From an uncultured Flavobacteriaceae bacterium (GTDB lineage Bacteria > Bacteroidota > Bacteroidia > Flavobacteriales > Flavobacteriaceae): DNA of 64,000 nt. Position 1 is the first letter of the stretch, and every line of letters starts with the position of its first letter. A program made the position numbers and the translations under genes. The notes beneath the pieces were generated by a model. The model ran no database searches and was not told where the DNA came from. It saw nothing but the letters and a program-made list of their open reading frames with translations. The stretch covers positions 806,001 to 870,000 of the forward strand of contig CANMFO010000002.1 of assembly GCA_947497245.1 (NCBI GenBank). Direction: 5' to 3'. Of the stretch, positions 1 through 24,036 are shown piece after piece.

Positions 1-1019
1 GAAATCATCAGTGATTCCCCTAGAAACTGCAGTACGAGTTGGCTGCGACCGGCCCCGATCACCTTGCGGAGGCCCACTTCCTTAGACCTTCTTGACGACC
101 GTGCCGTGGCCAAGTTCATATAATTGATGCAGGCCACAATTAAAATAACGAAGGCCACGATAAAGAAAATGTTCACATATTGGATGTTCCCATGGCCCGG
201 TACATCTATTTGCAGATTCGAATGCAGATGAATGTCCCGCAAAGGCTGTAAATTGAAGGAGATTTCAAATTCGGTAATTCGGGCTGCGTAGATTTCGTCG
301 ATTCGCTCCACCATTTTGGAAAGGTCCTCTGCAGAGGATATGGCGCCCTTTTCAAATTGGAAATATCCATAAAAATTAAAACTGTTCCATACCTTGTTGA
401 TCAGATCGGAATCGGTTTTCGCATGATAGGCCATGGGCAGGATCATGTTGAACTGCAAGTGCGAATTGCTTGGAACATCGGCCAAAACGCCCGTGACCGT
501 AAAGGTGTCCCTATTGTCCACTTTGATGGTCTGGCCCAGTGCCCTTTCGGCCCCAAAAAACTTCTTGGCCGTGGTTTCGGTAATTAAGATTCCATCGGGC
601 CGGGCGAGGGCCGTCTTCGAATCCCCTTCGATTAGCGGAAATGTAAATACCTCCAAAAAATTGGCATCCGCAAAAAAGACCGGCTCTTCCTTATACTTCT
701 GATCCTTTATCTCGATCAGGGCCTCAAAAGGGGAACTCAGGCGAAGACTTGATTTTATTTCCGGCACCAGATCCGGCAATTCCTCTACCATACCTGCGGG
801 ACTTACGGCAGCCTTAAAATCTTCATTGGCGATTGCGGTCAGTCTGTATATCTCGTCAGAATGGGTATGAAAGGCGTCGTAGCTCACCTCGTTCTGCACC
901 CAAAGCAGTATAAGAATACTGCAGGCCATACCAATGGCCAGTCCGCCGACATTCAACAAGGAGTACCATTTGTATTGAACAAAATTTCTCCAAGCGATCT
1001 TTATATAGTTTTTAAACAT
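1..1019 (-). CDS. FtsX/MacB-type ABC transporter permease, N-terminal part (runs off the left edge)
   Basis: This is the last visible member of the permease array; only about 339 codons are inside the window, so its C-terminal half is not seen. The ATG at 1017-1019 gives MFKNYIKIAWRNF, the same start as the neighbouring paralogs. A first membrane segment (about residues 20-40, NVGGLAIGMACSILILL) is followed by a MacB-like periplasmic domain and the second membrane segment. Next comes the cytoplasmic loop NLATARSSRRSKEVGLRKVI, which is the hallmark of FtsX-type permeases. It lies 53 bp downstream of the next permease on the same strand and is presumably co-transcribed. The family couples cytoplasmic ATP hydrolysis to movement of a periplasmic domain, as in MacB and LolCE. 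The substrate is unknown. Confidence 0.93.
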   Translation of the reverse strand, partial: MFKNYIKIAWRNFVQYKWYSLLNVGGLAIGMACSILILLWVQNEVSYDAFHTHSDEIYRLTAIANEDFKAAVSPAGMVEELPDLVPEIKSSLRLSSPFEALIEIKDQKYKEEPVFFADANFLEVFTFPLIEGDSKTALARPDGILITETTAKKFFGAERALGQTIKVDNRDTFTVTGVLADVPSNSHLQFNMILPMAYHAKTDSDLINKVWNSFNFYGYFQFEKGAISSAEDLSKMVERIDEIYAARITEFEISFNLQPLRDIHLHSNLQIDVPGHGNIQYVNIFFIVAFVILIVACINYMNLATARSSRRSKEVGLRKVIGAGRSQLVLQFLGESLMI

Positions 1020-1071
1020 GGTTCCCGTTTTTTGCCCGTTCTTTCAAAGGACGGGTCGCTGTTGTTTTATT

Positions 1072-3471
1072 TCATTCCGTACGCAGACTTTTCACAGGAT
1101 TTGCGTTTGCCGCCTTAATGGCCTGAAAACTGACCGTCAACATCGTTATCAAGAGCGCGCCTATCACGGCCAGTGCGAAAATCCACCATTTGAGAATTAC
1201 CCGGTAGGGGTACTCTTGCAGCCAACCGTTCATTACGTAATAGGAAATGGGGATGGCAATGAAGCAGGAAATCGTGACCAGCTTCAAAAAATCCTTGGAA
1301 AGCATGTTCCAGACGTTGAACACCGATGCGCCCAGTACTTTGCGCACGCCTATTTCCTTGGTGCGCTGTTCCGCTACGAAGGAGGTGAGGCCGAACAGGC
1401 CGAGGCAACTGATCAAAATGGCCAGGGCGGTAAAGATTCCGGAGAGCGTGCCGACCCGTTCCTCCGCGGCAAACTTTTCGCCGTACTCCTGATCGACAAA
1501 ATCATATTGAAACGGTATATTGGGAAAATGCTCTTTGAACACCCTTTCGATGATCGCCAGGTTTTGGCTTGCGCTCTGCTGGGGGTTCAACCTGAGATTG
1601 TAGTGACTGCCATTCGCATTCTTATCAAAAACGTACATGCCCTGTTTTACCGGTTCATAAGGAGATTGTGCGATCATGTCCTCTACCACGCCCACGATCT
1701 TTAAGGGCGGGTCCGGATTCTCATCGTCATCGTCCTTCATAAACTTGCCCACCGGATTCTTGATCCCCATATATTTTACCGCGGTCTGGTTGAGGAGCAC
1801 CGCGTTGGAATCGGAGGCGAATTCCCTCGAAAAATCCCTTCCTTCCACTATTTTCAGGTTCAAGGTCTTGACATACTCGTAGGAAACGGCGGTCCATGCA
1901 AAATCTTCTTGGAACCCCTCTGGCTTGCCCTCCCATGTAAATCCACTTCGGTTCGACCAGATGCGGGTCGTGGGACTGCTCGAAGTGGCCATCTCCACTA
2001 CGGCGTTGGAACCCAAGAACTCGCTTCGCATCAGTTCGTATTTGTCCTCAAAGTCCTGGCTCATGGTGGGCACTTGCACCAGGCCTTCCCGATCATAGCC
2101 TATGGGACGGTTTTTGGCATGGTTTATCTGCTGCATCACGATGAAGGTACCTATGATAAAAGCGACGGAAACCGTAAATTGGAGCACTACCAGGATTTTT
2201 CTTGGCGTACCGGCGTACTTGCCCACCTTAAAGGTTCCCTTCAATACTTCCACGGGCCTGAAAGAGGATAGGTACAGCGCTGGGTAGCTTCCCGCCAATA
2301 AGGCCGTGAACAGGACAAATGCTATTGAAACCAGCCAAAAGTAGAGGTTGCCCCAGGGAAATTCAATTTCCTTCCGGGCCAACTCGTTGAATCCGTTGAG
2401 TGACAGCAATACGATGATTATGGCCAAAACGTAGGCCATGACGACCACCAAAAAAGATTCGCTCAGGAACTGGTTGATCAGTTGACCGCGTTGTGAACCG
2501 ATCGATTTCCGGATTCCGACCTCCTTGGAGCGTTTTTCCGATCTTGCGGTGCTCAGGTTCATAAAATTGATGCAGGCCAGAAGCAATACAAAGGCACCGA
2601 TAATCCCAAAAAGCCAAACATATTTTATACGCCCGCCCACTTGTTTTCCGTTTTCAAAATTCCCGCGCAGATACCAATCTTCCATGGGGAACATAAACAG
2701 TTGTGGGTTGTATTCCACAGATTCCTCGTTCAAGGTCTTTTTGACGTCTTTTATCGTGGCGGTCACTTGGTCCATAGTAGTATTTTCCGCAATTTGTACG
2801 AACATTTGAAAGGAATTGTTCCCCCAGCTATCGACGGCATTCTTGATCCATTCCTGGGCAGTGATATACTTTTCCCAAGGCATGATATACTTGGTGCTCT
2901 TAAAGGAGCTGTTGAAGGGCATGTCTTTGTACACCGCCGAGACCATCATGTCATATTCACTGTTCACCTTCAGTATCTTGCCTACAGGATCTTCGGAACC
3001 GAAAAGGGCATTTGCCGTGGATTCCGATAACATAATGGAATTGATTTCCCGGAGCCCGTCCAGCTCTCCGCTTACAATCTCCAAGTTGAGCAATTCCGGA
3101 GCGGCTTCCTGCATGAAATTACCCTCCCTGGAAATGCTTGTCTCTTTGTATTTGAGATATTGGGAGTTGTTCCATGACGACATTACAATATGCTTGAAGT
3201 TGTCATTGTACCCTTCCCGAAGGGCCATTTCCAACGGTCTGGGTATGGCCGGTCCGGTACTTGTATTTCCGTTGAAGGTCTGCGATTGGAATACTTGGGC
3301 GATCTTGTCCTTGTTCTGGAAATACGCATTGTGCGAAAGCTCGTCCTGCATCCACAGGCCAATGATCAGGGTCACGGCCATACCCAAGGCCAGACCACCG
3401 ATATTGATGGCGGAATACCCTTTGTTTTTCTTTAGGTTTCTCCAAGCGATTTTTAAATAGTTTGTGAACAT
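1072..3471 (-). CDS. FtsX/MacB-type ABC transporter permease, double-module (array member)
   Basis: This is an inner-membrane permease of 799 aa. The layout is shared by the whole array: membrane segment 1 (about 20-40), a MacB-like periplasmic domain (about 45-280), three membrane segments forming a first FtsX module (about 285-405), then segment 5 (about 430-450), a second periplasmic domain (about 455-670) and a second three-segment FtsX module (about 680-790). Each module carries a cytoplasmic coupling loop, here NLSTARSEKRSKEVGIRKSI and AEQRTKEIGVRKVLGASV. The chain ends NPVKSLRTE, a tail shared with its neighbours. Two modules in one chain suggest that a single polypeptide supplies both halves of a transporter; that is inference. 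No ATPase domain is present, so it must borrow one, most simply the ATPase at 15719-16414. Confidence 0.93.
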   Translation of the reverse strand: MFTNYLKIAWRNLKKNKGYSAINIGGLALGMAVTLIIGLWMQDELSHNAYFQNKDKIAQVFQSQTFNGNTSTGPAIPRPLEMALREGYNDNFKHIVMSSWNNSQYLKYKETSISREGNFMQEAAPELLNLEIVSGELDGLREINSIMLSESTANALFGSEDPVGKILKVNSEYDMMVSAVYKDMPFNSSFKSTKYIMPWEKYITAQEWIKNAVDSWGNNSFQMFVQIAENTTMDQVTATIKDVKKTLNEESVEYNPQLFMFPMEDWYLRGNFENGKQVGGRIKYVWLFGIIGAFVLLLACINFMNLSTARSEKRSKEVGIRKSIGSQRGQLINQFLSESFLVVVMAYVLAIIIVLLSLNGFNELARKEIEFPWGNLYFWLVSIAFVLFTALLAGSYPALYLSSFRPVEVLKGTFKVGKYAGTPRKILVVLQFTVSVAFIIGTFIVMQQINHAKNRPIGYDREGLVQVPTMSQDFEDKYELMRSEFLGSNAVVEMATSSSPTTRIWSNRSGFTWEGKPEGFQEDFAWTAVSYEYVKTLNLKIVEGRDFSREFASDSNAVLLNQTAVKYMGIKNPVGKFMKDDDDENPDPPLKIVGVVEDMIAQSPYEPVKQGMYVFDKNANGSHYNLRLNPQQSASQNLAIIERVFKEHFPNIPFQYDFVDQEYGEKFAAEERVGTLSGIFTALAILISCLGLFGLTSFVAEQRTKEIGVRKVLGASVFNVWNMLSKDFLKLVTISCFIAIPISYYVMNGWLQEYPYRVILKWWIFALAVIGALLITMLTVSFQAIKAANANPVKSLRTE

Positions 3472-3501
3472 GATTTAATCTATTTAGAGTTCTTTATTTT
3501 T

Positions 3502-5889
3502 TCATTCGGTGCGTAAACTTTGTACCGGGTTGGCCCGTGCCGCCTTTATGGCCTGGTAACTTACGGTAAGGAGTGTGATCCCCAGCAGCCCCCCGACGGC
3601 GATTGCAAACACCCACCAGGAAATGGTGGTCCGGTAATTGAAATTTTGTAACCAATTGTCCATAAAATACCACGCTAGGGGAGAGGCGATAAGACCGGCG
3701 ATCAAAATGAGCTTTAAAAAATCCTGTGTGATCAACCAAAGGATCCCTATTACGCTACTGCCCAATACCTTTCGAATGCCTATTTCTCTCGTTTTTTGTA
3801 CCACAAAGAATAAAATCAGACCATAGATGCCCAAGGAACCAATAAAAATGGCCATTCCGGAGAACAGTTTGGTCAAAGACAGAAAACGCTGTTCCGATTC
3901 ATACAATTCGGCCACCCGATCATCCAGAAAGTCGTATTCAAAAATGTACTCTGGAAAAAGGCCCGTCCATTCTTTTTCAATATGCTGCAAGCTGCCCTTG
4001 GTCTGGCCCATATTGATTTTTATGGCCAATTCGTTATAGTTTTCCGAAGCGGGTGCTATAAATATGGGATTGATGTTTTCATGGAAGTCCTGGTCGTGAA
4101 AATCGGCAATGACACCCACCACATTGGCCTGGATGTATCTTCCGCTAATGGAAACCGGCTTGCCCAAAAGCTCATCTAACGATAGGATTCCCAACTTTTT
4201 GGCAAAGGTCTCATTGACCAAAACCTCATCTACGGAATCTTTTTCGTAAAAATTTCGACCGGCAAGCAATTGTAGGTCAAAGGTGTTCAAATAGTCCTTA
4301 TCCCCCATCTTGACCTGTATGGAAAACTCTTCATCTTCGGGCCGATTATTATAATTTATGTTGGTGCCCCATTGGTTTTCGCCGGCACCGGGCGACGCGA
4401 AACAGGCGGTGATCTTTTCCACTCCGGCAAATTGTGCGATCCGCTCCTTGAGGCCCTTGAGCCGAACGGGTTCCACCTCTGCGGGAATATCCACCATGAC
4501 CACGGCGGCCTTATCGAACCCTAGATCCGAATCTATGGCGAACCGTAACTGTTTGTTGACCACAATAGTCCCAATAATAAGTACAATGGAAATGACAAAT
4601 TGGGTGGTGACCAATACCTTTCGGGTAAGGTAGCCCCCCGAATCTTTTTGGGTCAGCTTTCTTTTTAGGGCAAGAATGGGGGTAACCCTGGCCAATAGGA
4701 ACCCAGGATAGCTTCCCGCCAGCAGCGTGATAGTTATCAGCAGCAAAAACGCAAAGGCAAAAAAGTGTGGTTGGAAAAGATCGGCCGTGGAAAGTTGCAG
4801 ATCGAAAATGCCATTGAAATACGGCAGCGACAACATACTCAGCGCCAGTCCCAATAAAAGGGCGAAAAAAGTGATCATGAAGGTTTCCGTCATGAACTGC
4901 CGGAACAGTTGGCCCTTGAAACCTCCCAAGACTTTTCGCACCCCGACTTCCTTGGAACGGGTAGCCGATTGGGCCGTGGAAATGTTGATGAAATTGATGC
5001 TGGCCACAACCAGTATGAAAAAACCTATCAAGGAGAATATCCATAGTATTTTGAGATCTATGCCGCCGCTGTATTTGGAATCAAAATGAATGTCGGCAAG
5101 TGCCTGTAACTTGTAATGGTGTACATTTTTGGATTTGGGTCGGAACTTTTCCACGTATCCGGAAAGAACACTTTCTATCTGTGCTATGTCCTGGTCGGGA
5201 CGCAGGAGACCGAAACATTGTAGGCCCGAATTGATACCGCCCCAAGATTCGTCGCCCAAAAATTCACTGTACTTTTTGATCGTTTCATAGGAGATGAAGA
5301 TGTCGCCGGATATGAGGGAGGTTCTTGGTAGATTTTTCAATACCCCGGTAATGGTAATGGTTTCCCGATTGCCCAAAACAAAGGTTTTGTTGATCGGGTT
5401 TTCATCGCCGAACAGTTTATGGGCCATGGCCTCTGTAACCACCGCAGTGTTCGGCTGTGAAATCGGAACATCGTCCGAATGGTTTACAAGGGGGAAGTTG
5501 AATATCTTGAAAAAGTCGGGTTCCGCAAATCTAATGCCTCCGTCGATCTTCATCCTTAGATTGGTCTCCTCAATGGAAATGAGCGGATCGTACCAATCCA
5601 CGATCTTGGCCACTTTTTCGGCATAGTCGTAATCGGTTTTAAAGGCATTGGCGAAACCGGGGGGCACACTCGCTTCGAAGTCTATAAAATCGCGGTGCTC
5701 TTCGGTAACAAACCGGTAGATCCTATCCGAATTGTTGTGGAAGGTGTCATATTGTAAATGATGGCTTACAAAGAGAAAGATCAGGATACTGCTCCCAAAA
5801 CCCAATGCCAGCCCCAGGATATTTATGGAGGCAAACCCCTTTCTTTTTCTGAGGTTCCTCCAAGCGATTTTGAGATGGTTCTTCAACAT
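3502..5889 (-). CDS. FtsX/MacB-type ABC transporter permease, double-module (array member)
   Basis: This is a 795-aa paralog in the array. The frame extends upstream to 5913, but the ATG at 5889 gives MLKNHLKIAWRNL, which aligns with all other members, so it is preferred. The first FtsX loop reads NISTAQSATRSKEVGVRKVL and the second VQKTREIGIRKVLGSSV; the tail is NPVQSLRTE. The first periplasmic domain (for example SVPPGFANAFKTDYDYAEKV) is clearly closest to the member at 13273-15657 rather than to its direct neighbours, which points to a duplication within the cluster. It is separated from its neighbours by 26-30 bp. The substrate is unknown. Confidence 0.93.
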   Translation of the reverse strand: MLKNHLKIAWRNLRKRKGFASINILGLALGFGSSILIFLFVSHHLQYDTFHNNSDRIYRFVTEEHRDFIDFEASVPPGFANAFKTDYDYAEKVAKIVDWYDPLISIEETNLRMKIDGGIRFAEPDFFKIFNFPLVNHSDDVPISQPNTAVVTEAMAHKLFGDENPINKTFVLGNRETITITGVLKNLPRTSLISGDIFISYETIKKYSEFLGDESWGGINSGLQCFGLLRPDQDIAQIESVLSGYVEKFRPKSKNVHHYKLQALADIHFDSKYSGGIDLKILWIFSLIGFFILVVASINFINISTAQSATRSKEVGVRKVLGGFKGQLFRQFMTETFMITFFALLLGLALSMLSLPYFNGIFDLQLSTADLFQPHFFAFAFLLLITITLLAGSYPGFLLARVTPILALKRKLTQKDSGGYLTRKVLVTTQFVISIVLIIGTIVVNKQLRFAIDSDLGFDKAAVVMVDIPAEVEPVRLKGLKERIAQFAGVEKITACFASPGAGENQWGTNINYNNRPEDEEFSIQVKMGDKDYLNTFDLQLLAGRNFYEKDSVDEVLVNETFAKKLGILSLDELLGKPVSISGRYIQANVVGVIADFHDQDFHENINPIFIAPASENYNELAIKINMGQTKGSLQHIEKEWTGLFPEYIFEYDFLDDRVAELYESEQRFLSLTKLFSGMAIFIGSLGIYGLILFFVVQKTREIGIRKVLGSSVIGILWLITQDFLKLILIAGLIASPLAWYFMDNWLQNFNYRTTISWWVFAIAVGGLLGITLLTVSYQAIKAARANPVQSLRTE

Positions 5890-5915
5890 GATCTTTTTGT
5901 TCTGTATTAACACAT

Positions 5916-8351
5916 TTATTCAGTGCGTAAACTTTGTACGGGGTTCACGATCGCGGCCTTAATGCTTTGATAGCTTACCGTTAGTATCGAAATGGCCACG
6001 GCCAAAAATGCCGCCAATACAAACACCCACCAACCGATCTCTATCCGGTACGAGAAATCTTCGAGCCATTTGTTCATGGCATACCAACCAATGGGCAGGG
6101 AAATGAGTACGGCGACACCTACCAATTTTAGAAAGTCGATGGAGAGCCTGTAGGATATCTGCCCCACACTGGCCCCCAACACTTTTCGAATCCCTATTTC
6201 TTTGGTGCGTTTCTCAGCGTTAAAGGCCGCAAGTCCAAAGAGGCCCAGGCAGGCAATTAGAATCGAGAGTGTTGTAAAAATGAAGAAAATACGTCCCAGT
6301 CGCTGCTCGGTTCGATAGGTCCTGTTGAACGAATCCTCCATGAAATAATAGTCAAAGGGCTGGCCCGGGGCAATTTTGCTCCAAATACCCTCGATGCTGG
6401 CAATGGCGTTTGAAAAGCTTCCGGCCTCCAATTTTATGGCCATGGAGCCCGCCCTTTTGTCCAAATAAAGGCTCAGGGATTCGATTTCATCCCTAAAAGG
6501 GGAAAAATGAAAATCCTTAAGGACTCCTATTATGGTAAAATACTTCGGATTTTCAAGTCCTGAGTCTGGTGTGTACCTCATGCCTATGGCCTCCTCCGGC
6601 GAAACGCCCATGACCGATACCGCGGATTCGTTGATGATCATACTGGTTGAGTCGTTCTTAAAGTTCCGATCAAAGTTCCTTCCGGCGATTATTTGGAAGT
6701 CCATGGTCGATACATAGTCATGATCGACGCCCCATCTTTGCATGCTTACGGCGTTCTCCTGGTCCGTAGCCCCCTCTTCCGGGACAAAAGTGCTATCGGA
6801 TCTGCTGGACGGTGTTGGGAAATAACTGCTCAAAGTGGTATTTTTAACGAAAGCCAATTTCTTTGTCTCTTCCTTAAAGGAGGCCATTTGTTCCCCAAGG
6901 GCAAATACGTCATCGACCACCAATATTTGGTCTTTTGAAAAACCGAGGTCCTTGTTCTGGATATATTTTAGCTGTTGGTACACCACCAAGGTGCCCACCA
7001 TGAGAAAAACGGAAATGGCGAACTGGAAGATGACCAGTCCGTTCCGAACCTTTCCCCCTCCCAGACTATCGTTGCTTGTGCCCTTAAGTACTTTTACCGG
7101 AACAAACTTCGACATAAAAAAAGCGGGATAGCTTCCAGAAAAGAGCCCGAGGACAATACCCGAAGCCAGTAGGATCAACCAAAAGAGCGGATGGGCGTAG
7201 GGCATGGAAATGTCTTTATCCGCCAAATCGTTAAAAAATGGAAGGGCGATTATCGCGATCAGGATTGCCAATAAAAGAGAGCCGAAAGAAACCAGGCCCG
7301 ATTCGACCAAAAACTGGCGGACAAGTTCTCCTTTCTTGGAACCCAATGTTTTGCGAACGCCGACCTCCTTGGCCCTTTTGAGGGAGTGTGCCGTGGACAA
7401 GTTCATAAAATTGACACAGGCCAGTACGATCAAGAAAATAGCAATGAAAGAGAGGATGTAGAGACTTTGAACATTGTTATTGGCGCTTATTTCCGCTACC
7501 CTGTCCGATTTTAGGTGTATGTCCGTTAGGGGAATGGTGCCATAGATCAAATGATTACCGGCCGCCTTAAACTGTTCTTCGGTGATACCCGGCATGAACT
7601 GCTGTACCCCGGGAATTACATATTTGCCCAAAAAATTTCGTAAAGGGGCCTGTAGGTCTGCAATATCGGCCGATGGGATAATCTTGATGAACGTTTGATA
7701 GTTGTTACTGCCCCAGTTCACCACACGGGAATCTTCATAACCCGACATGGCCATAAAAATGGAATGGTCCCTGAGAAATGAGTTTTTGGGCAGATCGTCG
7801 ATTATGCCCGATACCGTATAGGTCTCCGTGTTGTTCAGGACAAGGTTTTGGCCCAGGGCCTCATTGATTCCAAAGTGCTTTTCGGCGGCTGATCGGGTCA
7901 AGACCAGGGTGTTTGGCGATTTTAGAGCTGTTTTTTCATCGCCTGCCAAAAGATCTATCCCGAACATCTTAAAAAATGTGGAATCCACAAAAGTGGCCTG
8001 TTGTTCCTTGATGTTCACCTCCGTACCGGCCCTTTTGACCAACATACTGCCCCTTGTACGGAATCGTGTGGTCAGCTCGACCTCCGAAAAATCATTGTCC
8101 ATCGTTTCGGCCATGGGAGCGGGCGTTACGGCAAATTTGCGGTCCTCACCACCAAACTTGATGTCGGCATTGACCCGATGGATCCGATCCGCATCACTGA
8201 ACATGGTGTCGTAGCTCAATTCATCGTGGATGTACAATGCGATCAGTAGCCCCCCGGCAATGCCAACGGCAAGGCCAAAGGTGTTCAAGAAGGTGAAAAA
8301 GGGTTGCTTTTTAAGGCTTCTCCAGGCTATTTTCAAATGATTTTTAAACAT
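5916..8351 (-). CDS. FtsX/MacB-type ABC transporter permease, double-module (array member)
   Basis: This is an 811-aa paralog and the longest complete member. It starts MFKNHLKIAWRSLKKQ, with a first membrane segment at about 18-40 (FGLAVGIAGGLLIALYI). The first coupling loop is NLSTAHSLKRAKEVGVRKTL, the second AEKRTKEIGIRKVLGASV, and the tail NPVQSLRTE. Its second periplasmic domain has its own sequence, unlike the other members, as expected if the periplasmic domains set substrate or partner choice; that role is inference from MacB-type systems. The gap to the gene upstream in the operon is only 13 bp. Confidence 0.93.
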   Translation of the reverse strand: MFKNHLKIAWRSLKKQPFFTFLNTFGLAVGIAGGLLIALYIHDELSYDTMFSDADRIHRVNADIKFGGEDRKFAVTPAPMAETMDNDFSEVELTTRFRTRGSMLVKRAGTEVNIKEQQATFVDSTFFKMFGIDLLAGDEKTALKSPNTLVLTRSAAEKHFGINEALGQNLVLNNTETYTVSGIIDDLPKNSFLRDHSIFMAMSGYEDSRVVNWGSNNYQTFIKIIPSADIADLQAPLRNFLGKYVIPGVQQFMPGITEEQFKAAGNHLIYGTIPLTDIHLKSDRVAEISANNNVQSLYILSFIAIFLIVLACVNFMNLSTAHSLKRAKEVGVRKTLGSKKGELVRQFLVESGLVSFGSLLLAILIAIIALPFFNDLADKDISMPYAHPLFWLILLASGIVLGLFSGSYPAFFMSKFVPVKVLKGTSNDSLGGGKVRNGLVIFQFAISVFLMVGTLVVYQQLKYIQNKDLGFSKDQILVVDDVFALGEQMASFKEETKKLAFVKNTTLSSYFPTPSSRSDSTFVPEEGATDQENAVSMQRWGVDHDYVSTMDFQIIAGRNFDRNFKNDSTSMIINESAVSVMGVSPEEAIGMRYTPDSGLENPKYFTIIGVLKDFHFSPFRDEIESLSLYLDKRAGSMAIKLEAGSFSNAIASIEGIWSKIAPGQPFDYYFMEDSFNRTYRTEQRLGRIFFIFTTLSILIACLGLFGLAAFNAEKRTKEIGIRKVLGASVGQISYRLSIDFLKLVGVAVLISLPIGWYAMNKWLEDFSYRIEIGWWVFVLAAFLAVAISILTVSYQSIKAAIVNPVQSLRTE

Positions 8352-8364
8352 AGTTTCCTTTTTT

Positions 8365-10791: not shown

Positions 10792-10811
10792 AATCGTCTT
10801 TTTAGTTCATA

Positions 10812-13235
10812 TTATTCCGTTCCCAAACTCTTCGCCGGGTTGGCCAGTGCCGCTTTCATCGATTGGAAGCTGACCGTGAACATGGTTAGCGAGAGGCAGG
10901 CGATTCCCGCCAGGGCGATCATCCACCATTTGAAATCGATGTGGTAGGCAAAGTTGGAAAGCCACCCATTCAATAAATACCAACTTATAGGAGCGGCTAT
11001 GATCAGCCCGACAAGCATCAACTTGACAAAGTCGCCCGATAAAAGATACAGTAGTCCCGCAAGGCTGGAGCCCAACACTTTCCGGATTCCTATCTCCTTG
11101 GTCCGGCTTCTGGCCACAAACGCACTCATGGCAAAAAGGCCCATAAAGGCCAATAAGACCACAATGACCGAAAAGAAGTTCAGGAGCTTGAAATGTTCCT
11201 TGTCCTGCACAAAAAAACGGGCGAACTTATCATTGAGGACATGGAATTCCATAGGTGTCTTTGGATCGAAGGAATCGTTTACGGCACCAAGTGCGGCCAC
11301 GGTTTTTGCCCAGTCGGCCGTTTTTATCTTAAGGGTGTAGTAGTCGATGGAATGCAATGGGTTGTTCCAATTTCCAACGATCAGTGGTTTTATCCCGGTT
11401 CTGAAGTCCTCAATTTGAAAATCTTCCAGTACCCCGGTTATTCGGGCCCGAAAGGGTACTTCCAGACTTCGGCTGCTGCCCCCATAATTGACGAAGGGCA
11501 CCTCGATGATCTGACCGATGGGATTTTCCAGTCCCAGGGCGGCGACCGCAGCCTGGTTGACCAATACTTTGGAACTGTCGGAGGGGGAGCCCGAAAAATT
11601 GCTTCCCATGTGCAGGGCAATGTGATAGGTTTCCAAAAAATCCCTGTCCGCGCCCAGGAACAACATATCTTTTGCTTCCGTTGTCGGCTGCCCGTTCCGT
11701 TTGGCCTTTAAGAGCGGTATGTTTTTCCATTCCCCGGGGACCCTTGAACTAACGCTTACCGAATTTACCTCCGGGAGTCGTAAAAACTCGTTTTTAATGG
11801 CCCTGAACTGGGATCGTAAAATTCCACTGTTGATGTCTATGGTGGCCAGACCTTCCTTTTCGAAACCCAGTTCCCGGCTTTCCAGGAACTTCATTTGCTG
11901 GTTAAAGACAAAAGAGGCGGTAAGAAAGGTAATCACAGCTATAAACTGAAAGGTGAGCATGAACCTTCGAAAAGGCAATTTGGAACCCAAGTTGACCGTG
12001 CTTCTCAAGGAAGACGACATTCCGGTCCGTACAATCAACCAGAAGGGGTAGGCTACAGAGACCAGGCTCAGGAACAGTCCCGTAAGCACTACGATCAGCA
12101 TCCCGAAGATCGGCACCTGAGTCAGGTCCAGTGTGGTGCTGAACCAATTTTGAATAAGGGACTGTCCCGTCCAAAGGAGGGCATAGGCCAAGGTCATGGA
12201 TATGGTGATCAATACCAGGCTTTCTGCCAAAAATTGCTGCAGCAGGTGCAGTTTCCCTGCACCCACGATCTGTCGAAGCCCAATTTCCTTGGCCCTGTCG
12301 ATAAAGGCAATGTTGAGCAGACCCGCATAGTTGAAACAGGCCACCAAAAGAATGAGAATGCCTACCCAGAAGAACAAGCGCACATAAAGTCCATTTCCCT
12401 TGGCCTTGTTCATTTCACCTTCCACTTCATTTTCATAGAGGTGAATATCCTGTACCGGCTGTAGGGAATAGGTGCTACTGAACGTTCGGTCCTGGGGGTA
12501 ATTGTCCCGGGCCAATGCGGTGACCTTTTCCCCTAGGGCTGCCACGTCCGCTTTTGGCGCGAGCTTGAAATAGGTGATCAATTCGTTTCTCGTCCATTCC
12601 GAGGCCATGAATCCATCGAACCACCCAAAAATTTCAGAGGCCATTTGTTGGCTTAAAAAAACAAGGTTTTCCAAATGGGAGTTTTCGGGAAAATCATCCA
12701 AAACCCCGACCACGGCATAATCCCCGTACCCGGTCTTTAAAATTTTCCCCAGTGCGGTCGTATCGCCAAAATAGAGTTCTTTTGTGGATTTTGTCAAAAT
12801 AATACCATTGGGCCGGTTCGATAGATCGGTATGGGTTCCTTCGATCAGGGGAAAATCGAACACCTGCAAAAATTGATCGTCCATAATGGCCAAAGGCTGA
12901 TGGGTGACCGTCTCCGGATCGTTCCCCACATTGGACCTTCCTATGTACAGTAACTGGGTGTGGTTTTCCACCTCGTCAAACAGAGACTTCGACGCACTGC
13001 CCACCTTGGGAGGTGACTGTGCCAATTCGCGAACGGTACCGTTTTCATCTACGGTTTTTTGGAGCAAGCGGAACACCCCCTCCTGTTCCTGATCAAAGGA
13101 AGTTTCCTTTAAGACGTAGGCATTCAGTAGAAAAAAGCAAAAGAAGCCCAGGGTAAGGCCGAGCACATTGATCAAAGAAAACGATGCGTGGTTCTTGAGG
13201 TACCTGAAAGCTACTTTAATATGGTTTGTAAACAT
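10812..13235 (-). CDS. FtsX/MacB-type ABC transporter permease, divergent double-module member
   Basis: This is an 807-aa member. The reading frame opens with a GTG at 13241, but the ATG at 13235 gives MFTNHIKVAFRYLKNH in register with its paralogs. It is the most divergent complete copy. The start has AFRYL instead of AWRNL, and the first FtsX loop reads NYAGLLNIAFIDRAKEIGLR in place of the usual N-(L/I)-(S/A)-T-A core. The linker before segment 5 lacks the usual PVEVLKG-like motif, and the tail is NPAKSLGTE. The second FtsX loop, ARSRTKEIGIRKVLGSSL, is normal. Either the first module has a changed function or this copy is an older paralog. It sits in the array with gaps of 20 and 37 bp. Confidence 0.92.
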   Translation of the reverse strand: MFTNHIKVAFRYLKNHASFSLINVLGLTLGFFCFFLLNAYVLKETSFDQEQEGVFRLLQKTVDENGTVRELAQSPPKVGSASKSLFDEVENHTQLLYIGRSNVGNDPETVTHQPLAIMDDQFLQVFDFPLIEGTHTDLSNRPNGIILTKSTKELYFGDTTALGKILKTGYGDYAVVGVLDDFPENSHLENLVFLSQQMASEIFGWFDGFMASEWTRNELITYFKLAPKADVAALGEKVTALARDNYPQDRTFSSTYSLQPVQDIHLYENEVEGEMNKAKGNGLYVRLFFWVGILILLVACFNYAGLLNIAFIDRAKEIGLRQIVGAGKLHLLQQFLAESLVLITISMTLAYALLWTGQSLIQNWFSTTLDLTQVPIFGMLIVVLTGLFLSLVSVAYPFWLIVRTGMSSSLRSTVNLGSKLPFRRFMLTFQFIAVITFLTASFVFNQQMKFLESRELGFEKEGLATIDINSGILRSQFRAIKNEFLRLPEVNSVSVSSRVPGEWKNIPLLKAKRNGQPTTEAKDMLFLGADRDFLETYHIALHMGSNFSGSPSDSSKVLVNQAAVAALGLENPIGQIIEVPFVNYGGSSRSLEVPFRARITGVLEDFQIEDFRTGIKPLIVGNWNNPLHSIDYYTLKIKTADWAKTVAALGAVNDSFDPKTPMEFHVLNDKFARFFVQDKEHFKLLNFFSVIVVLLAFMGLFAMSAFVARSRTKEIGIRKVLGSSLAGLLYLLSGDFVKLMLVGLIIAAPISWYLLNGWLSNFAYHIDFKWWMIALAGIACLSLTMFTVSFQSMKAALANPAKSLGTE

Positions 13236-13272
13236 AATCACTTTTTTTTCCGCTGCTGGGCAGGGGTGTCAT

Positions 13273-15657
13273 TTATTCCGCCCGCAGGCTTTTTACCGGA
13301 TTCGCATAGGCCGCTTTAAGGGTTTGGTAACTGATCGTCATCAGGGTAATTGCCATGATCGCGAAAATGGCAATGGCAAAATGCCACCATTGGATATCGG
13401 TCCGGTAGCTATACCCCTGTAACCATTGTTCCATGGCGTACCAGGCAAGGGGAGTGGCTATAACACCGGCGATCAGGATCAGTCTCAAAAAGTCGACCGA
13501 GAAAAGGGCCAAAATTTGGGTGGCATTGCTTCCCAGAATTTTTCGGATCCCTATTTCTTTGGTACGCTGTCCCACAAAGAACAGGATCAGGCCGTATAGC
13601 CCCAAACAACCGAGAAAGATGGCCAGTCCCGAGAACACCTTGGAGAGCGACAGGTAGCGTTGTTCCGCTTCGTATTGTGCAGCGACACGGTCGTCCAAAA
13701 AATGGTACTCAAAAACGTGATCTGCAAAAGTGTTCGACCATTGTTCCCCTATCTTTTGAAGGGTAGCCTTGGTGTTCAGATGATTTATCTTTATCCCGAT
13801 TTCACCGTACCAGTCCGTTTTTGCAGCGATATATACCGGGCTTATTTCCTCGGTAAAACTGCGGTTGTGAAAATTGTTCACGACCCCAACGATCGTGGCC
13901 GTCACACTGCCTCCGCTCACATGGATTTCTTTGCCCAGCATTTCTTCAACGGATGTCAGGCCCAGTTTTTCACCCAACTTTTGGTTCACGAGCACTTCGG
14001 TAAGGGAGTCGTTTTTGAAGTAATTTCTTCCGGCAATAAGTTCAACACCAAAGGTCTTCAAATAATCCTCGTCCCCTATTTTGGCTTGGACATTGAATTC
14101 TTCCCGTTCGGACCGGGTGTGGTACCGTATGGATGTGCCCCAATTGCTCTCCGCGGCTCCCGGGCTGCCCAGGCAGGCCGAGACCTTCTGTACACCGGGG
14201 ATTTTTTGGATGCGTTCCTTTAAGGCGTACAGGGGCACCGATTCAATTTCGGATGGAATCGAAACCATTACAATGGATTCCTTGTCGAAACCCAAATCGG
14301 TGTTGACGGCATAATCGATCTGTTTCGAGATGATCAGGGTCGATGCGATCAGTACAATGGATATGACGAATTGGGCAACGACCAGTACTTTTCGGGTCGT
14401 GGCGCCTCCGGTGTCGGTGTGGTTCAGTTTTCCCTTCAATGCCAGAACGGGCAGGATACGCGACATCAATATACCGGGATAACTTCCGGAAAAGAAGGCT
14501 ACTAGGATCAGGAGCACTGTCAAAAAGACAAAAAACCGAACTTCCAAAAGATTATTTGGGCTCAGTTGCAGCTCGAAGAGATTATTAAAAGCGGGAAGGA
14601 AGGCCAATGCCAATGATACACCGATGATGACGGCAAACAGACTGATCACGAAAGTTTCCGACAGGAATTGCCAAAACAGGTGTTTTTTAAAGCTCCCCAG
14701 TACTTTTCGTACCCCGATTTCTTTGGCTCGATAAAAAGCCTGTGCTGTTGAGATATTGATGAAATTGATGGAAGCTATCGCAATCAAGAAGAATCCGATA
14801 ATGGCGAAAACCCATAGGACCATAGGGTCGACTCCTCCGTACAGTGGATTGAAATGGACATCCGATAGCGGCTGTAACTTATAAACGTGCCGGTTCTTGT
14901 TTCCCGGTCTGAATTTCTTGGGGAGTTCCAAAAGCGCCGTTTCGATATCGGCGACCTGTTGATCCGGTTTCAGGAGTGCATAGCATTGCAGATTATCGGA
15001 TATGCCGTTCCAGTTTTCCTCCGCGGCAAATTCGAAGAAATCTTCAAGGTTTTTAAAGGAGACGAAAACCTGACTGTTCAAAAAAGTGGTTTTCGGCAAG
15101 TTCTTGAGCACCCCTGTAATCTCAATGGATTTATCATTTTCCAGGACAAAGCTTCTTCCTACCACATCGGTTTCCCCGAACAGGGTCAGGGCCATCTCCG
15201 CGGTGACCACTGCCGTGTTAGGAGCTGCGAGCGAAACATCGTTCGCTCCGTTGACCAGTGGAAAATTGAAAATCCGGAAAAAATCTTCCTCCACGAAAGC
15301 TATGTCCTGTTTGAACTTGTCAAGCGTCCCATTTTTTGGGACATCGATGACCAATCCTCCGAGGGTCACTATTTTGGCCACTTCCTCGGCATAGGCATAA
15401 TCTTCCCGGAAGACCTTGGCAAATCCAGGGGGCACACTGGGTTCAAAAGCTATATGGTCGCGATGCTGCTCGGTGTTTATTCTGTATATCCTATCGGAAT
15501 GGGTGTGGAAGTCATCATAGGAAAGGTGATGGTTCAAAAAAAGATATATCAAGATGCTGCCGCCAAAACCAATGGCGAGACCAAGGATATTTATGGTGGC
15601 AAAGACCTTCCTTTTGGTCAGGTTTCTCCAAGCAATTTTGATATAGTTTTTGAACAT
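13273..15657 (-). CDS. FtsX/MacB-type ABC transporter permease, double-module (first of the array)
   Basis: This is a 794-aa permease and the first one after the ATPase gene, 61 bp away. It starts MFKNYIKIAWRNLTKRK. The coupling loops are NISTAQAFYRAKEIGVRKVL and GQRTKEIGIRKILGSNAT, and the tail is NPVKSLRAE. Its first periplasmic domain (DRIYRINTEQHRDHIAFEPS, then VPPGFAKVFREDYAYAEEVA) matches the member at 3502-5889 closely, so the two form a sub-family despite three different permeases between them. Being adjacent to the ATPase, it is the most likely ancestral partner; that is inference. Confidence 0.93.
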   Translation of the reverse strand: MFKNYIKIAWRNLTKRKVFATINILGLAIGFGGSILIYLFLNHHLSYDDFHTHSDRIYRINTEQHRDHIAFEPSVPPGFAKVFREDYAYAEEVAKIVTLGGLVIDVPKNGTLDKFKQDIAFVEEDFFRIFNFPLVNGANDVSLAAPNTAVVTAEMALTLFGETDVVGRSFVLENDKSIEITGVLKNLPKTTFLNSQVFVSFKNLEDFFEFAAEENWNGISDNLQCYALLKPDQQVADIETALLELPKKFRPGNKNRHVYKLQPLSDVHFNPLYGGVDPMVLWVFAIIGFFLIAIASINFINISTAQAFYRAKEIGVRKVLGSFKKHLFWQFLSETFVISLFAVIIGVSLALAFLPAFNNLFELQLSPNNLLEVRFFVFLTVLLILVAFFSGSYPGILMSRILPVLALKGKLNHTDTGGATTRKVLVVAQFVISIVLIASTLIISKQIDYAVNTDLGFDKESIVMVSIPSEIESVPLYALKERIQKIPGVQKVSACLGSPGAAESNWGTSIRYHTRSEREEFNVQAKIGDEDYLKTFGVELIAGRNYFKNDSLTEVLVNQKLGEKLGLTSVEEMLGKEIHVSGGSVTATIVGVVNNFHNRSFTEEISPVYIAAKTDWYGEIGIKINHLNTKATLQKIGEQWSNTFADHVFEYHFLDDRVAAQYEAEQRYLSLSKVFSGLAIFLGCLGLYGLILFFVGQRTKEIGIRKILGSNATQILALFSVDFLRLILIAGVIATPLAWYAMEQWLQGYSYRTDIQWWHFAIAIFAIMAITLMTISYQTLKAAYANPVKSLRAE

Positions 15658-15718
15658 GACGGTTCGTTTTTTGATGAATGCATTTTTTGATTTGATGAAT
15701 AAACCATGGAAACTGGTC

Positions 15719-16414
15719 TCAGACCATTGCCCCCAAAGCCCTGTTTTGACTTTCGGTCACAATTTGCCCGTCAAACAGGTTGATCACCCTGTGGGCATAA
15801 TGCGAATCGCGGTCGGAGTGCGTAACCATTACGATGGTGGTGCCCTCCTGATTGAGTTCGGTCAGCAGGTTCATGACCTCGATACCGTTTTTGGAATCCA
15901 GGTTCCCAGTTGGCTCATCCGCCAAGATCAGCTTGGGGTTGGTCACCACGGCCCTGGCTATGGCCACACGCTGCTGCTGCCCACCTGAGAGTTGGTGTGG
16001 GAAATGTTTTTCCCTATGGGCGATTTTCATGCGTTCCAACACCTTCATCACTTTTTCCTTCCGCTCGGCCTTGCCCATTTTAAGGTAAATGAGGGGCAAC
16101 TCCACATTTTCGTACACGGTAAGCTCGTCAATTAGGTTAAAACTTTGAAAAACAAAGCCCAAATTACCCTTTCGCAGTTCGGTGCGCTGGCGCTCCTTGA
16201 GTCCGCCCACCTCATGGCCTGCAAACTGGTAACTGCCCTCCGTGGGGTTGTCCAACATCCCGATGATGTTAAGCAGGGTCGATTTACCGCAACCAGAAGG
16301 CCCCATGATCGCGGCAAACTCCCCTTCTTCAACCTTTAGGTTGACTTTGTTCAATGCCAAGGTTTCCACTTCCTCGGTTCTAAAGCTCTTTTTCAAATTT
16401 TGGATCTGTATCAT
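15719..16414 (-). CDS. ABC transporter ATP-binding protein (MacB/LolD type)
   Basis: This is a 231-aa cytoplasmic ATPase that should power the FtsX-type permeases downstream. All motifs are intact: Walker [10 protein letters not shown] at 38-46, Q-loop Gln90 in FVFQSFNL, signature [15 protein letters not shown] from 142, Walker B LILADEP with the catalytic Glu167, D-loop NLDS, and His199 in the H-loop. The length and the [11 protein letters not shown] motif fit the LolD/MacB ATPase branch. It is the only ATPase gene in the visible part of the operon, although at least seven permease genes follow. It lies 68 bp after the HlyD-type gene. Confidence 0.95.
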
Positions 16415-16482
16415 TTTTGACTAGGTTTAATTCATTACTATAAAGACATCCCGTACTTCGCGATGTGACAGTTGATATTCGC

Positions 16483-17733
16483 TTATTTTAAAACTATTCG
16501 TTCCGCTTCCCCGAAGCTGTCGTAATTACTGGTGATCACTTTTTCCCCGGCCTCCAGCCCTTCCAATACCTCATAGTAACGGGAATTCTGCTTTCCGATT
16601 CGGATCGAACGTTTTATGGCCTCCCCGCCATCCGGGCCCACAACAAAGATCCACTGTCCCCCGGTGCTTTGAAAGAAACTGCCTTTGGGCAGCAATAGCG
16701 CCTCGCTCGATTCGCCCAATTGGAGTTTGATGTTGTAGCTCTGTCCCGTTCGAATGGTCTCTGGTTTTTCTTTGGTGAAGACCAGGTCTACCTCGAACTT
16801 TCCATTTCGCACCTCCGGGTACACTTTTCTTAGCCGTAGCCCATATTCGCTGTTGTTCCGTTCCAAAACCGCTGTCAAATCGCGGATGACCCGGTCGATA
16901 TAGTGCTCGTCGATGCTTGCCTTGATCTTGTAATCGGTGAGCACGTTGATCTGCCCAATACGCTGGCCCGGTACGATATTCTGCCCTATTTCAGCATCCA
17001 GGAAGCCCAATTGGCCATCGGCAGGGGCCCGGACGTTGAGATGGTCCAATCGTTGGTATACCATGCTCAAGGTCTTGCGCATGCGGTTGAGATCCGCGTC
17101 CAATCCGGTCAATGATGTTTTTCGGAGCTCATCATCCTGCTCTGTCTGCAGTTTTACGATATTGTATTGCTTTTGGGAAAGTTCATAGTTTTCCTTGGAG
17201 GTCAAATACTCTTCCTGTGATATGAGTTCTTCATTGTACAGCGCCTGGTTCTGTTCAAAATTTCGCTTCAGCCGCTGCAGATCGGTACTGGCCGTGGCTA
17301 GGGACCGACGTCCTTCCACTTGACGGGAGTCGAAGGTCAGTTTGGTAGAGCGGAGGTCGTTCTGTTTTATGGCGAGGTTGCTCTCGCTGGTCATGATCTG
17401 CTCGTACAGGTTGATGTTTTCCAGTTTTAGGATAATATCTCCCTGCTTTACGGTCGCTCCTTCCTCAATGAGTTTTTCCATGACACGGCCGCCCTCGTAA
17501 GCATCCATAAATATGGTGGTAATGGGGGCCACATTTCCATTGATGGTGATGTAATCATCGAATTTGCCCTGGGTGACATCGGCAATGGAAAGCTTGTCCT
17601 TTTCCGTGCGAAAGGTGGAAACCGAATTTCCAAAGGCCAGTTGATACCCGGCGAACAATATCAGCAGCCCAAGGGCGATATAGCCATAGTGTTTGGGCCG
17701 TAATCCTTTTTTCTTTTCGAGTTGTATGTCCAT
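16483..17733 (-). CDS. HlyD/MacA-type periplasmic adaptor (membrane fusion protein)
   Basis: This is a 416-aa adaptor expected to bridge the inner-membrane permease and the TolC-type channel across the periplasm. It has a short cytoplasmic start, one membrane anchor (about 16-35, YGYIALGLLILFAGYQLAFG), and the first half of a lipoyl-like domain with GGRVMEKLIEEGATVKQGD (about 81-99). A long helical hairpin rich in Gln, Leu and Glu follows (about 110-250), then the second lipoyl half (VRAPADGQLG) and beta-barrel and membrane-proximal domains. The gene is 62 bp downstream of the TolC-type gene and 68 bp upstream of the ATPase, the classic order of a tripartite exporter. Confidence 0.93.
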   Translation of the reverse strand: MDIQLEKKKGLRPKHYGYIALGLLILFAGYQLAFGNSVSTFRTEKDKLSIADVTQGKFDDYITINGNVAPITTIFMDAYEGGRVMEKLIEEGATVKQGDIILKLENINLYEQIMTSESNLAIKQNDLRSTKLTFDSRQVEGRRSLATASTDLQRLKRNFEQNQALYNEELISQEEYLTSKENYELSQKQYNIVKLQTEQDDELRKTSLTGLDADLNRMRKTLSMVYQRLDHLNVRAPADGQLGFLDAEIGQNIVPGQRIGQINVLTDYKIKASIDEHYIDRVIRDLTAVLERNNSEYGLRLRKVYPEVRNGKFEVDLVFTKEKPETIRTGQSYNIKLQLGESSEALLLPKGSFFQSTGGQWIFVVGPDGGEAIKRSIRIGKQNSRYYEVLEGLEAGEKVITSNYDSFGEAERIVLK

Positions 17734-17795
17734 TTTGTTGCGTTACTTTATTGTTAAGTTATTCCATAGGGTCGGGGGCAGCATGCCCAAACCCG

Positions 17796-19145
17796 CTAAT
17801 TGATATTAAAAACGGGTAGTCCCCGATAAAAGTCCAAGGTGCTTTTGTTGATTTCCGCCCGCAGGCGCACCTGTAGGTTCTCGTTTTGCGCACTGGCGAA
17901 CAAATTCTTTGCGGTAAACAGTTCGATCGCGTTGATCATCCCTTTTTCATACCGCTTTTGGGCGATGGTGAATGCCAGGCTCTGGGCATCGACCTTTTGG
18001 GTGCTTTGCTCATATTCCACCAGGAGGGAATTGTACTCCTGCACCAACGTCTGGATGGCCTGAAATATGACCTGCTCCTGTACTTCCAGGTTGTTCTCGG
18101 CCCGGAGGCGTTCTATTTTCTGTTGCTTCACCCTAGATCTTGCCGACCAACCGTTGCTGATGGGAACATTGAGCCGTACTCCTACGTACTGCGATATGTT
18201 GTCGTTGAACTGATCCCGGAACGGAACGGTGTTTTTCGTAATACTGTCTCTCGTAGTCTCGAAATAGCCCGTGGCAACCCCTCCAAACAACGATAGACTG
18301 GGGTAAAGGCCTCCCCTTGCCACGGCGACCTGCTTTTTGGCCGCTTTCGCCCTTAGCTCCTGGGCTTTAAGAATGGGCATAAAACCCTTTGCAGCGGCAA
18401 AGATCGAGTCTGTTTGAATTTGGGAGGCTTCCGAACCCTTCGTTTCCTCGACCAGTCCCCGTTCAATGATAATGTCGTCCGTGCCCTCCAGGTTCATCTC
18501 CTGCATCAAGGTCAATTTGGCCCCTACCAACTGGTTCTCGCTCTGGGTCAAATTGAGTTTGTCGGTCAACAAAAGGGACTCCGCCTCGTACAGGTCGGCA
18601 CCTGCTTTCAATCCCAGGTCGATCTGCCTTTTTACCAGGTCGTAGTTCGTTTGGGACACCGCGAGCTGTTCATTGGAGATGGCCACCAATCCCTCGAAGA
18701 ACTGAATGTCGTAGAATGCCTGCATCACCCGAAAGGCCAGCAAATATTTTTGTTGCAGCGCCTCCTCCTTGGTGGCCTTGTACAAAAGTTTTGACGCCTT
18801 GATCGCATTTATTTTGAGAAAGCCCTGAAAGAGGTCGATCGAAGCGTCGAGCGAATAGTTGTTGGAGAAAAAATCTGTGGTCACCACGTCGTTGGTAAAG
18901 GGATCCGTACTTCGTCCAAAATTGATGACGTAGTTTGTATTTCCACTTATATTGGGCAACAAATTGCGAATGGACTGTCGGTAGGTCTCCCTGCCCGATT
19001 GTTCGGTGTATTCGAAATCGTTTAGTTGCAGGTTGTGCTCCAGTGCATAGGTGACACAATCGTCCAAAGTCCACTTTTCCTGTGCCATGAGCGGGAGGCC
19101 CAGCAGAAAAACGAGAACAAAGCTTATTTTAAATTTTCGAGACAT
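17796..19145 (-). CDS. TolC-type outer-membrane efflux channel
   Basis: This is a 449-aa outer-membrane channel subunit. An ATG at 19163 is also possible, but the ATG at 19145 gives MSRKFKISFVLVFLLGLPLMAQE, a clean signal peptide, so it is preferred. Two outer-membrane efflux repeats follow. The first is around EKWTLDDCVTYALEHNLQLN; the second holds the long helices ending with KRYEKGMINAIELFTAKNLF. TolC-type proteins form trimers that cross the outer membrane and the periplasm. It is the first gene of the long minus-strand export operon, and the regulatory gap upstream is shared with the divergent response regulator. Confidence 0.93.
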   Translation of the reverse strand: MSRKFKISFVLVFLLGLPLMAQEKWTLDDCVTYALEHNLQLNDFEYTEQSGRETYRQSIRNLLPNISGNTNYVINFGRSTDPFTNDVVTTDFFSNNYSLDASIDLFQGFLKINAIKASKLLYKATKEEALQQKYLLAFRVMQAFYDIQFFEGLVAISNEQLAVSQTNYDLVKRQIDLGLKAGADLYEAESLLLTDKLNLTQSENQLVGAKLTLMQEMNLEGTDDIIIERGLVEETKGSEASQIQTDSIFAAAKGFMPILKAQELRAKAAKKQVAVARGGLYPSLSLFGGVATGYFETTRDSITKNTVPFRDQFNDNISQYVGVRLNVPISNGWSARSRVKQQKIERLRAENNLEVQEQVIFQAIQTLVQEYNSLLVEYEQSTQKVDAQSLAFTIAQKRYEKGMINAIELFTAKNLFASAQNENLQVRLRAEINKSTLDFYRGLPVFNIN

Positions 19146-19179
19146 ATCATATTGGTGTGCCATTTGCAGTACTACTGTT

Positions 19180-19186
19180 GTGCCAA
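19180..19186 (-). promoter_or_regulatory. Possible sigma-54 promoter -24 element (TTGGCAC) for the export operon
   Basis: On the minus strand this reads TTGGCAC, a full match to the -24 half of the sigma-54 consensus. The matching -12 half is poor: at the required spacing the sequence reads TAGTA instead of TTGCA. If real, transcription would start near 19159, just ahead of the ATG at 19145. A competing sigma-A-type reading is TATTCTTG at 19184-19191 (7 of 8 positions counting the free ones). The call rests mainly on the divergent NtrC-type regulator and the palindrome upstream. Confidence 0.3.
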
Positions 19187-19247
19187 GAATATACTTTGCT
19201 TGTAATCAAAGACTTATGTCTGTTTTCCATAGAAATTGTGCTATAAA

Positions 19248-19266
19248 CTGTAAAATAGTTTTACAG
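19248..19266. promoter_or_regulatory. Perfect 8-3-8 palindrome, candidate enhancer for the NtrC-type regulator
   Basis: CTGTAAAATAGTTTTACAG has two perfect 8-base arms around a 3-base centre. It lies in the divergent gap between the TolC-type gene and the response-regulator gene. Its centre is about 98 bp upstream of the start point implied by the possible -24 element. That is the usual distance for an upstream activator site of sigma-54 enhancer-binding proteins. Binding by the adjacent regulator is inference. Confidence 0.55.
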
Positions 19267-19344
19267 ATATTGTCAAAAAAATGGACACTTTATACAATGT
19301 ACTGATTTCAAATCGTAGTTTTAACCTTGATTTATTGATTCGCT

Positions 19345-24015: not shown

Positions 24016-24036
24016 GTTTCTTGGTTTTGTTTGGGA

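Follow-up and report, generated by a model that had tools for sequence, protein, structure and literature searches.

How many transporters can be served by one motor? The question is raised by the left end of a 64,000-nucleotide stretch from an uncultured Flavobacteriaceae bacterium (G000:C2:806001-870000, genome of 5.25 Mb; the whole stretch is referred to as the window), in which an earlier note had described one adaptor and one ATPase with at least seven double-module permeases and had proposed a shared engine combined with interchangeable permeases. The features concerned are as follows, in window positions unless the contig (C2) is given.

17796..19163, minus strand: TolC-type outer membrane channel gene, first of the operon (Pfam OEP, E 1.3e-49)
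16483..17733, minus strand: HlyD/MacA-type periplasmic adaptor (Pfam HlyD_3; best NCBIfam match DarC, below cut-off)
15719..16414, minus strand: ATPase A, with canonical LSGGQQQR and GNLD (Pfam ABC_tran; best NCBIfam match DarD, 298 bits against a cut-off of 375; alignment with relatives)
13273..15657, minus strand: permease p01, double FtsX, closest to ATPase A, modelled (Pfam, NCBIfam, AlphaFold2)
10812..13241, minus strand: permease p02 (Pfam and NCBIfam profile matches)
8365..10791, minus strand: permease p03 (Pfam and NCBIfam profile matches)
5916..8351, minus strand: permease p04 (Pfam and NCBIfam profile matches)
3502..5913, minus strand: permease p05 (Pfam match)
1072..3471, minus strand: permease p06 (Pfam and NCBIfam profile matches)
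1..1019, minus strand: permease p07, cut by the window edge; whole gene C2:804653-807019, 788 aa (genome ORF)
19164..19344, no strand: control region of the operon and the divergent regulator, with a TGGCAC word close to the TolC start and a CTGTAAAA-CTA-TTTTACAG palindrome
19345..20718, plus strand: NtrC-type response regulator, divergent (Pfam Response_reg, Sigma54_activat, HTH_8)
20848..22197, plus strand: histidine kinase, the regulator's partner by position (Pfam HATPase_c, PAS)
C2:753439-754107, outside the window: ATPase B, closing the array after p27 (genome ORF)

Within the window, the TolC-type, HlyD-type and ATPase genes occur once each and are followed by seven same-strand permease genes, six complete and one cut by the edge, as had been described. 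The gaps had been given as 13-61 bp; the upper end is correct and the true range is 2-61 bp, the 2 bp gap depending on a GTG start. A single operon is likely from spacing and gene order. Predicted internal promoters (26 found, 22.9 expected) and terminators (26 found, 25.5 expected) in window 1-19400 are at chance level and thus speak neither for nor against separate transcription units. The array extends about 52 kb to the left of window position 1 and comprises 27 double-FtsX permeases on the minus strand, from C2:821657 to C2:754167, many more than the seven visible in the window. One of them (764778-767153, 791 aa, intact) is masked in the ORF calls by the over-long start of its neighbour, and two other genes, encoding an alpha/beta hydrolase (794038-794877) and a DUF2807 protein (761569-762306), interrupt the array. 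The operon is closed by ATPase B, which is 56% identical to ATPase A, systematically different from it and conserved together with it, so the single ATPase holds for the window but not for the operon. The earlier note had named more ATPase genes beyond the left edge as evidence against its reading; literally there is one, for 27 permeases, and many-to-one thus becomes many-to-two.

Short hairpins were seen by eye in three neighbouring inter-permease spacers (window 1020-1071, C2:804627-804652 and C2:802163-802190). The DUF2807 gene (putative secreted adhesin-like, C2:761569-762306) has counterparts inside or at the end of the arrays in G002, G004, G006 and G110. Weak DUF2807 relatives are found just before ATPase B in G040, G203, G146 and G165; five of eight small ORFs at this position were matched, G002 included.

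Each array permease carries both halves of a transporter in one chain; the mixed assemblies that the earlier note had offered as an alternative would thus be built from chains that are already double. Pfam detected two FtsX stretches in all six complete window permeases, as claimed, and two MacB_PCD domains in five of them; the second periplasmic domain that had been attributed to each complete permease was not detected in the sixth, which gave one MacB_PCD match. The ADOP model TIGR03434 aligned over its full length (about 800 of 803 positions) with all five window permeases tested, and the scores of 217-314 bits lie below its cut-off of 622, identifying them as ADOP relatives and not members. 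The AlphaFold2 model of p01, built from a 32-sequence alignment (pLDDT 84, pTM 0.77), has eight long helices and two periplasmic domains. Its best Foldseek match in the PDB was E. coli YbbP (9ge6, E 2.3e-19, TM 0.49 over the query), followed by MacB, LolE, BceB and a permease domain of Porphyromonas gingivalis (3is6). The best matches in a PDB sequence search were MacB chains, and FtsX was also among the matches.

Pairwise identity among the 27 array permeases ranges from 22 to 56% (mean 31%), and the reading frames of all 27 are intact. The two coupling segments, where the ATPase contact is expected, are the most conserved parts (mean pairwise identity 0.51 and 0.46), and the two periplasmic domains the least conserved (0.23 and 0.23). 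Residues E701, R705, K706 and G709 are present in every array permease. The coupling segments of the N-half and the C-half are consistently unlike each other, a difference that would permit oriented docking of A and B. Of the 27, 16 are closer to a permease of another genus array (57-81%) than to any other permease at home; for the remaining 11, the other genus arrays that were read contain no orthologue above 52%. One orthologue group provides the last permease before B in six of nine genus arrays. The permease orthologues are under purifying selection: dN/dS is 0.020-0.069 for 16 orthologue pairs from three close species, at dS values of 1.2-3.1, near saturation. An origin of the array by recent tandem duplication is not supported, given the low mean identity, the better matches abroad and the search for exact 30-mer repeats, which found none within the array.

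ATPase A keeps LSGGQQQR and GNLD. In B, LSGGQQQ is followed by L, I or V, and the D-loop aspartate is replaced by N, H or Q. These departures are fixed, both the aspartate and the signature arginine being absent from B in 9/9 genus, 30/30 family (30 of the 39 B matches), 12/12 named and 20/20 phylum copies (overlapping sets); among 68 other ATPases from the same scan, the arginine is kept in 66 and the aspartate in 66, two lacking each. Walker A, the Walker B Glu and the H-loop look intact in the aligned genus copies of B, so B/B homodimers may be functional. In four comparisons, dN/dS was equally low for B and A (0.008-0.013). Phylogenetically, A and B are sister clades (support 0.89 for A, 1.0 for B and 0.94 for both together) in a tree with 43 sequences of each and 16 other ATPases; their distance matrices are only moderately correlated (0.57). 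The best NCBIfam equivalogs of A, B and the adaptor are the DarBCD models; A and B also match the MacB and LolD models.

The gene order, which the earlier note had suggested looking for in other Flavobacteriaceae, recurs in the genus and the family and also in the phylum. The conserved layout consists of a divergent kinase and NtrC-type regulator, followed by TolC, HlyD, A, n permeases and B. Nine of ten genus genomes (own included) have permeases between A and B, with n = 4, 6, 8, 8, 9, 9, 17 and 27; the ninth array is split over two contigs and shows 9 complete permeases plus pieces. The tenth genome, which is 87% complete, has no such array. Seven of the nine arrays show the kinase, the regulator, TolC and HlyD; in the other two, these genes are cut by a contig end. 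In the family sample, B (E up to 1e-85) was detected in 39 of 199 genomes, one copy each, and a further 37 loci were read. They take two main forms: in one, TolC comes first and HlyD and A are close; in the other, HlyD leads, TolC follows B, and both HlyD and A are more distant (67-71%). Across the phylum sample, 74 of 395 genomes had B (E up to 1e-78), again in one copy each, and 20 loci were read. Absence of B here, and of A or B in the phylum counts below, means absence among the best candidates per genome at the cut-off (14 scored in the family search, 7 in the phylum searches). Named carriers include Flavobacteriaceae, a Chitinophagaceae, a Mucilaginibacter MAG, Larkinella humicola, and Calditrichia and Ignavibacteria MAGs.

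Among the 65 stretches read, 43 show A and B, 19 B only, and 3 have no B label (contig end or ORF choice). The order is strictly A-(permease)n-B in 38 of the 43; the exceptions are G085, L202, L203, L204 and L205. Across all loci, departures from bracketing include permeases outside A-B, B before A, and an A and B with no permease between them. A second large array, in another family of the class (G572:C6:1498001-1568000, L270-L273), places 22 permeases, interspersed with eight other genes, in the 64 kb between A and B; the kinase, the regulator and HlyD precede A, and TolC follows B. The A-B spacing (35-76 kb) hints at further giant arrays in G411, G309, G337 and G534. A contig filed as an Opitutia MAG (L122) carries a B relative (60%, D-loop His) and a double permease, by transfer or mis-binning.

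B occurs almost only where A does: the two co-occur in 73 of 74 phylum genomes, with G489 as the lone exception. In 54 of the 73, the two genes share contig and strand with A upstream, at a gap of 37 bp to 173 kb (six over 45 kb), and in 8 of these 54 (8/73 genomes) they are 37-615 bp apart. In the others, B is upstream of A (7), on the opposite strand (1) or on a different contig (11). Four stretches (G253, G387, G445 and G469) have B with no close permease and A elsewhere in the genome, 4.2 Mb away in G445; A was present in each of the 14 genomes searched for this. Since A and B may be adjacent, on different contigs or 4.2 Mb apart, both are kept whatever the arrangement. Single-permease A-P-B operons were also found (L114, where the contig start cuts A, and L123). 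These operons, together with the adjacent and the unlinked A and B genes, disfavour B as a private ATPase of the last permease.

A was found without B, at the cut-off used, in 47 of 120 genomes with A; B is thus dispensable for the basic system. Some of the more distant A matches (59-64%) may not be orthologues of A. The 20 A-only loci read of these 47 were chosen and not random: 15 come from the 16 B-negative genomes in which a permease matched strongly, and five from elsewhere among the 47. Their permease number is 0-3, with a median of 1.5, whereas the 43 A+B stretches contain 0-27, with a median of 5 (Mann-Whitney p 1.8e-8, without phylogenetic correction). From these comparisons, B looks like an addition to the A system that accompanies permease expansion. 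ADOP matches with an exponent of -85 or lower were present in 71 of 74 B-positive versus 16 of 321 B-negative phylum genomes (two candidates scored per genome).

The same genome encodes 19 further full-size double permeases at 17 other loci. For 18 of them, BLASTP (E up to 1e-10) showed no A/B-like ATPase within the 9-17 kb read. The remaining one, an orphan permease, lies close to a lone second copy of ATPase A (C2:946351-947043, L224; 92% identical) but on the opposite strand, and no adaptor or channel is labelled beside this copy. Eight of the 19 fall in array orthologue groups at 55%, and six of these eight group with array members of other species. Of four small ORFs preceding dispersed permeases, one encodes a PadR regulator and three have no Pfam match. 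A MacAB-type set of four half-size permeases with their own ATPase is located at C2:340000-358000. The proposal of a shared engine is therefore strengthened by the 27 permeases, their conserved coupling segments and divergent periplasmic domains, the dispersed copies lacking a nearby ATPase of this type, and the recurrence of the layout in genus, family and phylum; its single ATPase has to be given up.

With FtsX modules, MacB-like periplasmic domains (Pfam, Foldseek) and LolD/MacB-class ATPases, the system has the features of the type VII (MacB/LolE/FtsX) ABC superfamily. The darobactin exporter DarBCD, which exports a peptide antibiotic (also stated in the NCBIfam model name), likewise has a fused double-module permease, an HlyD-type adaptor and a separate ATPase. 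However, the matches to NF038007, NF038008 and NF038010 stay below the cut-offs (298 of 375, up to 162 of 700 and 200 of 450 bits, respectively), and the NCBIfam models describe one permease and one ATPase, whereas up to 27 permeases and an altered second ATPase are present here. TolC, an HlyD/MacA-type adaptor, MacB-like periplasmic domains and FtsX modules are shared with MacAB-TolC. MacB is an ATPase fused to a half-size permease that dimerises (the MacB chains in 5nik and 5gko have 654 and 671 aa), while here the ATPase genes are separate and the permeases are fused doubles of about 800 aa, in large number.

ADOP proteins, first defined in Acidobacteria, resemble the array permeases in their full-length duplicated architecture, large paralogous sets and dispersed copies without a neighbouring ATPase, but the present operon links permeases to ATPases, adaptor and channel. 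The ADOP cut-off of 622 bits was exceeded in no genus genome. Two permeases of a phylum genome with A and B (G435:C35:2016-4421 and C40:485-2896) score over it, at 840 and 810 bits. Dyadobacter genomes with 28 and 33 ADOP copies, of unknown function, are reported in PMC11573002. YbbAP, LolCDE and BceAB have the type VII fold, and YbbP, the best structural match, is also a single-chain permease of about 800 aa; their solved complexes differ in containing two copies of one ATPase (YbbA, 6 chains in 3 entries; BceA, 14 in 7). We know of no motor shared by many permeases among systems of these types.

The heterodimeric ABC exporters TAP, TM287/288 and TmrAB also have two unequal ATPase domains, but belong to another fold class and have the ATPase fused to the membrane domain. 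Two of their features are found here, namely paralogous ATPases kept together (73/74 genomes, sister clades) and a conserved motif departure in one subunit. Their usual hallmark, according to PMC7544095, is loss of the Walker B Glu, unlike ATPase B, which keeps it. The D-loop aspartate bears on dimerisation, coupling and direction in TAP and TM287/288, as PMC7756269 and PMC4242082 describe, so that with a fixed change there in just one subunit the two ATP sites would no longer be equivalent. One ATPase common to several sugar ABC importers, MsmK, is described in PMC4519317; as an importer ATPase it is a homologue in function only. A literature search, with subscription titles mostly outside its reach, recognised no paper describing this operon or the A/B ATPase pair.

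Taken from sequence and gene order, the locus probably encodes a tripartite type VII ABC export system, similar to MacAB and DarBCD, in which many fused permeases use a shared motor, probably an A/B heterodimer when the system is expanded. Many permeases, each an alternative substrate module, would share a single TolC channel, a single HlyD-type adaptor and the two unequal ATPases; they would include those of the operon and probably those at dispersed loci too. Because a fused permease provides both membrane halves, two ATPase subunits are needed per permease; one permease at a time would dock on one ATPase dimer via its two conserved coupling segments, take its own substrate through its own periplasmic domains, and pass it to the common adaptor and the common channel. 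Given the single-permease operons with A and B and the adjacent A and B genes, it is simplest to assume that each complex of the expanded systems contains one A and one B, and that A-only systems use A/A. The dimer would thus usually be A/B, with two non-equivalent ATP sites, and small relatives would be driven by an A homodimer. The substrates are probably varied peptides or amphiphiles, a guess by analogy with MacB and DarB.

The same genes could instead encode two homodimeric motors, A/A for most permeases and B/B for a subset such as those with a different N-half coupling segment or the last gene before B. The 20 loci with A alone and 0-3 permeases suggest that A/A probably works, the catalytic Walker residues are kept in B, and one orthologue group sits last before B in six of nine genus arrays. 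This division of labour is nevertheless unlikely in view of the A-P-B operons with one permease, the adjacency of A and B in 8 of 73 genomes, the two altered D-loops and signatures that a B/B dimer would have, and the finding of B without A in only 1 of 74 genomes. The conserved departure in D-loop and signature, and the near-constant company of A, would also suit a B that acts chiefly as a regulator, or as a non-productive partner competing with A, and not as a motor subunit; with the catalytic motifs intact in the aligned B copies and dN/dS as low as that of A, we regard this role as quite improbable.

Two further explanations concern the permeases and not the motor. They might be ATP-driven levers or sensors similar to FtsEX or BceAB, with adaptor and channel serving only some of them, as the MacB/FtsX fold class includes such proteins, the p01 model matches BceB and FtsX is among the sequence matches; but both periplasmic domains are MacB-like and, wherever that end of an A+B operon can be seen, the HlyD-type adaptor neighbours A, which makes a role without export very unlikely. 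Copy numbers of 4 to 27 within one genus and a patchy presence could point to a by-product of tandem duplication, an array of mostly redundant permeases without division of substrates. We give this little credence, as the 27 intact frames, the mean identity of 31%, the lack of any repeated exact 30-mer, the 16 permeases with a match of at least 57% in another genus member above their best home match, and the dN/dS of 0.020-0.069 (dS near saturation) all argue against it.

The export system with a shared motor may extend further than the operon. As a tentative proposal, which we put somewhat below an even chance, it would be a phylum-wide plug-and-play platform in which an A/B heterodimeric motor, one adaptor and one channel serve dozens of permeases in trans, from the array and scattered loci; the gain of B would have allowed the expansion, and the platform would supply the motor that ADOP-like orphan permeases lack. 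Duplicated FtsX permeases form large families that carry orphan annotations without an assigned function, and the conserved single-copy A/B pair that tracks such permeases is a candidate for their motor. If A and B pair, the motor would be heterodimeric, as far as we know the first of its kind in this fold class, where the solved members have a single type of ATPase. If the shared-motor reading is true, the motor is common and only the substrate module varies. The arrays of 4-27 modules within one genus provide material for learning periplasmic-domain recognition.

The divergent kinase and regulator are the probable common switch for the whole set. RpoN is encoded in the genome, and the regulator has a Sigma54_activat domain and a GAFTDA motif where GAFTGA is usual. 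The 41 orthologous intergenic regions contained no canonical sigma-54 promoter (TGGC-N7-TTGC) before the first gene, and its relaxed form occurred in one of the 41, against 1.1 expected. The TGGCA[CT] word, similar to a -24 box, was found in 33 of the 41 regions (49 occurrences, 6.3 expected), and a TGTAAA-TTTACA palindrome in 5 of the 41. Sigma-54 control of COG0577 permeases in Bacteroidia is predicted in PMC12316311, which fits here. In window 22252-24831, an HTH-DUF4870-beta-lactamase-fold fusion (610 aa) adjoins an unrelated ABC ATPase (39% to A).
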